Assembly: GCF_023953935.1 (NCBI RefSeq)
Contig: NZ_JAMLIW010000006.1
Span: 18,501-82,500 of the forward strand
Direction: 5' to 3'
From: Thermomonas sp.
GTDB taxonomy: Bacteria > Pseudomonadota > Gammaproteobacteria > Xanthomonadales > Xanthomonadaceae
Length of the DNA: 64,000 nt
The translations under genes and the position numbers were made by a program. The notes below the pieces were generated by a model. That model ran no database searches and was not told the origin of the DNA. It saw only the letters and a list, made by a program, of their open reading frames with translations. Below, piece after piece: positions 6,807-7,604 of the stretch (the first letter of the stretch is position 1; each line of letters begins with the position of its first letter).

Positions 6807-7604
6807 TCACCACGGCAGGCGCTCGCCGCGCCAGTCGAAGAAGCCGCCGGATTGCTCCGGGGTGGCGGCATCGATCACGCTCAGCATCCCGGCCACCACG
6901 GCCTGCGGCGCGTCGGTGGCCTTCGGCCCGCCCATCGCCGTCTGCACCCAGCCCGGGTGGAAGGCCAGGACCACGACCCCGCGCGGCGCCAGCGCCTTGG
7001 CCAGCTGCGCCGTGGCCATGTTCTGCGCGGCCTTGCTGATCGCATAGCTGGGTGCGCCGAAGCGGGTGACGCCGGCAATCGAGCCGAGCTGCGAGCTGAG
7101 GTTGGCGATGACGGGGTGGTGGCTCGTGTCGAAGGGGGCGGGTTGCCGATCAAGTCGCTCCCCGATACTCGCTTGGTTGATCGGCAACCCGCCCCCTTCG
7201 ACAGCGTTGGCGTCGGCAAACCACGGCGCCAGCGCCTGTGTCAGCAGCAGCGGCCCGATGGCGTTGACCGCGAGGCTGTCTTCCAGCGTGGCTTGCCGGA
7301 GCTGGCCGAAGCGTTCGCCCGAATGCAGCACGCCGGCGTTGTTGATCAGCAGGTCGATGCGGGCGTCCTCGCCCAGCGCCAGCGGCAGCTCGGCGACGAA
7401 CCCGGCGCGGGAATCCGGATTGGCCAGGTCCAGCGGCAGGACGCGCAGGCGGCCGGGATGGTGCCCGGTGAGCGCGTTGAGCTCGGTGGCCTTGCCGGGC
7501 TGGCGGCAACCGGCCAGAACGCGGTCGCCGCGGGCCAGCAGCTGGCGCGTGAATTCTAGACCGACGCCGCGGTTGGCGCCGGTGACGACGGCGGTGCGCG
7601 CCAT
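6807..7604 (-). CDS. Short-chain dehydrogenase (C-factor-like SDR) with in-frame palindromic insert
   Basis: The 265-residue protein is a classical SDR: cofactor loop VVTGANRGVGLE (residues 6-17), LLINNAGV, catalytic Ser in NLSSQLGS, and Tyr-x-x-x-Lys in SYAISKAA, then HPGWVQTAMGG. It resembles C-factor/CsgA-like dehydrogenases; the substrate is unknown. Between ADAN and HPVIANLSS, where relatives go straight from helix to strand, there are about 28-30 extra residues rich in Gly, Pro and Arg. These are encoded by a 77-base palindrome (7127-7203) inserted without breaking the frame. All catalytic residues remain, so the enzyme may still fold with an exposed loop. It is divergent from the M16 peptidase. 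Confidence 0.85.
   Translation of the reverse strand: MARTAVVTGANRGVGLEFTRQLLARGDRVLAGCRQPGKATELNALTGHHPGRLRVLPLDLANPDSRAGFVAELPLALGEDARIDLLINNAGVLHSGERFGQLRQATLEDSLAVNAIGPLLLTQALAPWFADANAVEGGGLPINQASIGERLDRQPAPFDTSHHPVIANLSSQLGSIAGVTRFGAPSYAISKAAQNMATAQLAKALAPRGVVVLAFHPGWVQTAMGGPKATDAPQAVVAGMLSVIDAATPEQSGGFFDWRGERLPW
7127..7203. repeat. 77-base palindromic element inside the SDR gene
   Basis: The 27-base arms at 7127-7153 and 7177-7203 are perfect reverse complements, beginning TGTCGAAGGGGGCGGG and ending in GATCAA. The 23-base centre (7154-7176) can pair further if one base bulges. The element is read through in frame by the SDR gene. Palindromes this long are normally intergenic; in-frame insertion resembles the Rickettsia palindromic elements. 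I found no second copy in the window. Confidence 0.9.

Follow-up and report, generated by a model that had tools for sequence, protein, structure and literature searches.

An in-frame palindrome in a Thermomonas SDR gene is probably one copy of a dispersed hairpin family with a conserved loop and variable arms

A palindrome translated within an SDR gene

The window analyzed here (the whole 64-kb stretch of Thermomonas sp. DNA) contains an open reading frame at 6807..7604 on the minus strand, encoding a 265-aa protein. It belongs to the SDR family, with sniffer-type relatives in the PDB, and the NCBIfam SDR models matched it at scores below their cut-offs. An inverted-repeat search of the window located within this gene a left arm of 27 nt (7127..7153, plus strand) and a right arm of 27 nt (7177..7203, plus strand) that are 100% complementary and separated by 23 nt. 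The intervening loop, GTCGCTCCCCGATACTCGCTTGG (7154..7176, plus strand), with an 18-nt core at 7155-7172, emerged from copy comparison as the part common to a hairpin family. The original prediction of perfect arms around a 23-base center, translated in frame as part of an SDR protein, is thus an accurate description of the locus; through the loop, the SDR frame reads ...INQASIGERLDRQ... By simple arithmetic, a 27-bp perfect inverted repeat at 23-nt spacing is not expected to occur by chance within 64 kb. As single-stranded DNA the palindrome folds at -39.7 and -39.0 kcal/mol on the two strands (z = -10.4 and -9.0), and none of 200 shuffles reached the native energy.

In the protein, ...LAPWFAD precedes the insert and VIANLSS follows it, and the alignment with a solved relative (1sny, "sniffer") is interrupted at this site, from query residue 137 to 164. 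The gene is 795 nt long here versus 702 nt in G006 and G018, the shortest among ten Thermomonas genes (twelve were planned; G010 and G001 yielded no ORF). The resulting difference of 31 residues, together with the break in the 1sny match at the same place, bears out the extra protein segment that had been proposed. The palindrome-bearing gene looks functional, since dN/dS was 0.19-0.45 across seven pairs of species that included genes with the insert and genes without it.

Relatives lacking the insert, a check suggested with the prediction, were readily found. Across 25 Thermomonas genomes, the SDR orthologue carried the palindrome in 6 and lacked it in 14, was cut by a contig end in 1, and had no clear counterpart in 4, so the segment is not a loop common to all orthologous SDRs. 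The inserts occur in both hairpin orientations across the genus. An assembly artifact, raised in the prediction as a possible cause, was ruled out because the orthologous gene of a second genome, G021, holds the 91 nt with 99% identity; among the matches listed from 60 genomes, the whole left arm recurred only in this orthologue. The first SDR hairpin at locus L060 is of an extended loop subtype, in which a mini-hairpin (GCAAAC...GTTTGC) replaces the 5' part of the loop, as also in the hslV-hslU spacer at L330. As for target-site duplications, only a 5-bp GCGCC repeat was seen, flanking the pair of SDR hairpins in G024 and absent in G023; this repeat could equally be a deletion mark.

The loop as the conserved part

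A search of the window's own genome with the 91-nt region returned other significant matches confined to the center, which makes the loop the repeated part rather than the arms, to which the original prediction had given that role. Aligned copies have a common center and different arms, with each copy's own arms mostly pairing. The 23-nt loop was present in all 20 copies listed from a larger set, and 48/48 aligned copies form the pair next to it. Across 168 distinct copies (de-duplicated by flanks, with 45 nt needed on each side), the loop is exactly GTCGCTCCCCGATACTCGCTTGG in 101, and a further 35 end in TTTG. Other copies have a second type of loop, GTCGCTCCACGTGATTCGCTTGG and its relatives, or a third variant, an extended loop with a small additional hairpin. 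Position 1 of the loop (G or T) tends to covary with position 21 (T or C), with 15 copies reading T...TCGG, and this covariation suggests that the loop itself may fold.

Loop conservation is in part a product of ascertainment, because copies were retrieved by their core. At sites found independently of the core (SDR and hslV-hslU), loops are intact, slightly altered (G016, G013, and G015), or, in G010 and G024, of the extended type. Decay or truncation of the loop does sometimes occur, for example at the L366 site in G002.

An arm-based repeat was ruled out for Thermomonas, where copies share the loop and not the arms, although arm subfamilies exist in some other genomes. Copies with similar arms occur within the genomes of Luteimonas salinisoli, MAG.332, SG8_30, and KLAP199; stem and loop can therefore spread together, and arm uniqueness is not general.

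Literature searches with two 14-mers of the core led only to one unrelated cancer paper. Among the matches listed for repeats with conserved loop and variable stem, xanthomonad RAYT/REP elements, in-frame palindromes, Lysobacter or Luteimonas repeats, and Thermomonas palindromes, none was an account of this family. The default maximum loop of RepRanger is given as 11 nt (PMC12306157), so that a hairpin family with a 23-nt loop would be missed at this setting.

Paired change in the arms

The stems have a median length of 24 bp (168 copies) and reach about 31. When arms were exchanged between copies, pairing extended over a median of only 5, whereas 166/168 native copies score 9 or more. For a closer comparison, 69 copies less than 80% alike were selected, of which 48 were aligned and 21 left out, several with gapped stems. 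In the 48 copies, all 24 stem pairs show changes on both sides, and 93.1% of 1152 cells are paired, versus 50.4% after shuffling and 33.8-44.9% after sliding by 1-3 columns; 11 cells are G-U and 80 unpaired. The full set of 69 copies gave 1458 Watson-Crick, 22 G-T, and 176 other cells of 1656 (89.4% paired), again with 24/24 pairs changed on both sides. In all 185 copies, the corresponding counts are 3790, 116, and 534 of 4440.

Such covariation is very strong (24/24 pairs) and would also be produced by a functional RNA hairpin, i.e., an mRNA stabilizer, attenuator, or sRNA whose arms are held by ordinary compensatory selection. Many copies lie between co-directional genes, as at hslV-hslU, and such roles have been ascribed to REPs (PMC3733652). 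The composition of the mismatches and the orientation of the copies point the other way. An RNA stem is expected to prefer G-U over other mismatches. G-T made up 11.1% (0.111) of non-Watson-Crick cells in the 69 copies, against 13.3% (0.133) expected from arm composition; since this share is not above random, the pairing signature appears to lie at the DNA level, with G-T uncredited as a pair (116/650 non-Watson-Crick cells in the 185 copies). Hairpins are sense to co-directional genes in 47 cases and antisense in 33, both orientations occur at 8/27 sites, and both occur inside the SDR gene. Rfam searches gave 7 miRNA-type matches at the window palindrome, all below the gathering score, and no hairpin match at the gathering score across 15 hairpin loci. 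On this evidence we regard a functional RNA as unlikely.

Comparison of orthologous copies shows how arms change. In 30 orthologous groups, each represented by its most similar pair (some groups being neighbors), 533/720 stem pairs are unchanged, 79 show double Watson-Crick changes, 69 a single change to a mismatch, 11 a change to G-T, and 28 mixed outcomes, while the loop is altered at 13/690 sites. The clearest case is G002 versus G024, where 12/24 pairs are doubly changed and none singly, the loop is identical, and indels are matched in both arms, themselves shifting the register of some pairs. Correction of the arms is not always complete, as many single mismatches separate the orthologous arms of L121 and L147, L177 and L190, and L143 and L252. 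The right arm of L403 (G002) is damaged by a G-run, and its sister L375 (G024) is a perfect palindrome; the damage is either a real change or a hairpin sequencing error.

Of 27 site groups whose alignments run through the hairpin, 8 contain both loop orientations, and a reversed loop is accompanied by homologous arms in L245 versus L373 and L180 versus L391. Opposite orientations at hslVU and SDR can alternatively be explained by loss of different members of opposed pairs.

Flanks are inverted-duplicated over 22-28 bp around 4/180 copies (L203, L194, L114, and L213), and one case of 20 was seen in a control with mixed flanks. The outer inverted duplications at L194, L114, and L203 span 23-28 bp immediately beyond the hairpin, and the flank repeat of L203 resembles the arms of that copy's own subfamily.

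Turnover between species

In the hslV-hslU spacers of 25 Thermomonas genomes (L317-L341), we identified the loop hairpin in 16, GTAGGAGC-type palindromes in 4, another palindrome in 1, a microsatellite-like run in 1, and little or nothing in 3. A sequence beginning GTAGGAGCGCACC... is given as a Xanthomonas REP (PMC2817692). Opposed hairpin pairs occupy the spacer in G024 and G023 (the latter at locus L035), and the palindrome type differs between Thermomonas species as if any hairpin suffices. In the window's own genome (L337), short repeats of the CCCGAATC/CCCGTCTC type form a long run at the place of the hairpins of its relatives.

Sequences from G013 and G023 were too short for the hslVU tree, which joins G024 (hairpin pair) to G002 (REP-type) as its sister, with support of 100/99 and branches of 0.017. 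Thirteen G024 sites, representing 14 places listed among 16 G024 matches, were examined in G002; 5 have a hairpin there, 1 has a truncated loop in reverse orientation, and the other 7 lack a core. Of the five shared hairpins, one has the other loop type and one a damaged right arm. Two of the seven core-less sites hold GTAGGAGCG palindromes; the L365 site among the seven aligns poorly, and the L367 site has a chance-like core with 3 mismatches. These sister species therefore differ at most compared sites, as gain or loss. At one site with the same inner arms, L377 (G024) has loop type 2 and L401 (G002) type 1, and the loop there seems to have been exchanged as a unit.

Turnover of this kind might instead reflect site hot spots, in which different hairpins insert repeatedly and arm differences or flips record separate insertions with no rewriting in place. 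The several kinds of palindrome in the hslV-hslU spacer, and the presence of loop type 2 in place of type 1 at L377/L401, are in keeping with repeated insertion. Orthologous arms, however, often have inner and outermost pairs in common and show graded differences, and flipped copies retain homologous arms (L180 versus L391), neither of which fits separate insertions well; we consider hot spots very unlikely to account for the arm differences and flips.

Distribution and genomic setting

The window's own genome contains 7 hairpin copies. In sampled genomes, searched with stricter filters, the hairpin occurred in 36/296 genomes and 10/54 genera of the taxonomic family, with 1-16 matches per genome, and in 2/369 genomes of the class, one being the window's own and the other weak. 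Named records with the hairpin include at least Thermomonas, Luteimonas, Lysobacter, Zeimonas arvi, Burkholderiaceae MAGs, other proteobacterial MAGs, and one Sumerlaeia MAG.

Based on home-made gene calls (36 of the 185 copies being near a locus end and 2 having a gene on one side only), 80 copies lie between co-directional genes, 22 between convergent and 14 between divergent genes, 31 inside a gene call, and 38 were unclassified. Of the 31 "inside gene" calls, 18 were checked, yielding 5 SDR and 2 UvrA copies, 1 unclear case (L181), and 10 with one non-coding side; the remaining 13 comprise the G021 SDR, 4 hslV-hslU spacers, and 8 Luteimonas array copies. The in-frame UvrA copies are L213 in Zeimonas arvi (near 860-1040; UvrA model 1369.9 bits, cut-off 1147) and L112 in a Burkholderiaceae MAG (near 886; part of UvrA, 289.6 bits, below the full-length cut-off). 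The SDR and UvrA copies share the same loop codon phase, encoding ASIGER on one strand and SLPDTR on the other. At L213, a second, outer 22-bp inverted repeat encloses the hairpin. The same element thus recurs in other protein genes, as had been suspected, and the idea of a mobile palindrome that adds protein loops stands in part: the family is dispersed and in frame here, but most classified copies are intergenic and protein loops are the exception.

The members of opposed pairs are repeatedly spaced about 90, 111, 167-170, or 180 nt apart, and tandem units occur in Luteimonas. A Rho-independent terminator was rejected as an explanation, since a five-T run lies within 36 nt outside the inner stem, on either side, in only 3/194 copies and orientation varies. 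Plasmid (best E 0.2) and phage (best E about 10) searches gave partial matches, none convincing, and an exact 17-mer of the core occurred in 0 viral contigs; neither an Rfam family nor a phage, plasmid, or viral origin was backed by a convincing match.

The opposed pairs, the tandem, BIME-like units of Luteimonas, and the mostly intergenic location recall a classical REP/BIME family mobilized by RAYT (Y1 tyrosine transposase), and Y1_Tnp is present in 18/25 genus genomes and 12/20 other hairpin-bearing genomes. Nevertheless, a loop hairpin was found at 0/45 Y1_Tnp loci (about 1.5 kb on each side, contig permitting), where the near-misses were one chance-like 4-mismatch core without flanking TTGG and some 5-mismatch matches. 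No Y1_Tnp was detected at E 0.001 in G008 (7 copies), G104 (12), G211 (7), or G226 (9), and the lack of a GTAG/CGTC foot, the long stem, the 23-nt loop, and the 1-16 copies per genome also speak against mobilization by RAYT, which we judge quite unlikely. In a scan of neighboring genes covering 206/219 distinct proteins (the 13 above 700 aa were left out, and a rare helper could escape), the 25 commonest of 161 and of 205 Pfam families included no transposase and no recurrent helper gene, with ≤3 members per family.

Proposed mechanism and significance

REP/BIME-like hairpins with reversed conservation, i.e., with the loop kept and the stem free, are the best reading of these data. We assign a probability of roughly 0.6 to the fuller account, in which the window palindrome is one copy of a dispersed DNA hairpin family whose 23-nt loop is kept and recognized by a protein, whose arms are rewritten in concert by template switching, and whose spread is REP/BIME-like. 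The hairpin would be extruded during replication, and a polymerase switching template inside it would copy a change in one arm into the other, so that the arms drift in concert; such a switch would at times also invert the loop. The loop would be retained through recognition in the single-stranded hairpin by a putative protein, either a mobilizing enzyme or a host hairpin-binding factor. Copies would spread in a REP/BIME-like manner, mostly between genes, and a copy entering coding DNA would survive if it is in frame and the place tolerates a change in length.

Template switching between inverted repeats has been described as homogenizing arms and inverting the spacer (PMC8604942), and it can create and maintain hairpins and repair stems (PMC8794818). 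Paired changes, matched indels, and loop inversion are this published signature, from which we infer its action here. Counting against the proposed mechanism, no enzyme was found beside the hairpins at the loci scanned. Alternatively, the hairpin could be a mobile DNA element that inherits only its loop. Template switching would then make or remake the arms from local DNA at each new site, and a putative enzyme would recognize the loop alone. This is hinted at by the copies of the window's own genome, which share loop and not arms, and by the 4/180 inverted-duplicated flanks; its odds are lowered by the similar arms shared within genome by the Luteimonas, MAG.332, SG8_30, and KLAP199 copies, and we hold it to be most improbable.

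Across many loci, the family offers a natural record of concerted evolution in palindrome arms, which includes paired substitutions, matched indels, and inverted loops and extends over both coding and non-coding DNA. With it, template switching can be tested in bacteria as a source of compensatory change, with RNA selection as the alternative. Reversed conservation in a palindromic repeat family also predicts a putative loop-recognizing factor and suggests that families of this kind escape searches based on the stem.

Comparison with known systems

Template-switch mutation shares with these hairpins the homogenization of arms and inversion of the spacer (PMC8604942) and the creation or repair of hairpin stems (PMC8794818), but it is a mutational process rather than a repeat family and leaves the conserved loop unexplained. 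The coding DNA of Nematomorpha mitochondria likewise contains perfect inverted repeats, and template switching was proposed to bring about repeat conversion in them (PMC6649704); their setting is mitochondrial, and the part of that account consulted mentions no shared loop. The likeness to Rickettsia palindromic elements (RPEs) that accompanied the original prediction holds for in-frame insertion into protein genes, here SDR in 6 genomes and UvrA at two loci. It does not extend further, as Rickettsia RPEs are described as losing repeat identity over time (PMC6649704), whereas here the arms change yet stay complementary in most copies, the loop is invertible, and most copies are intergenic.

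The closest resemblance is to REPs and BIMEs, which are also short, intergenic palindromes arranged as opposed pairs and arrays; some REPs lie within genes, among them UvrABCD and other repair genes (PMC3733652). GTAG/CGTC REPs are described as 20-40 bp long, with 6-9 bp stems and the tetranucleotide at one end (PMC3733652), in contrast to the variable stem of about 24 bp (median 24) and shared 23-nt loop seen here. No GTAG/CGTC foot and no conserved column were present in the outer stem of 48 copies, and none of the 45 Y1_Tnp loci was flanked by the repeat, while opposed pairs, BIME-like arrays, and a mostly intergenic location were all observed. The hairpins therefore fall outside the GTAG/CGTC REPs in foot, stem, and transposase, and resemble them in pairing, location, and turnover.
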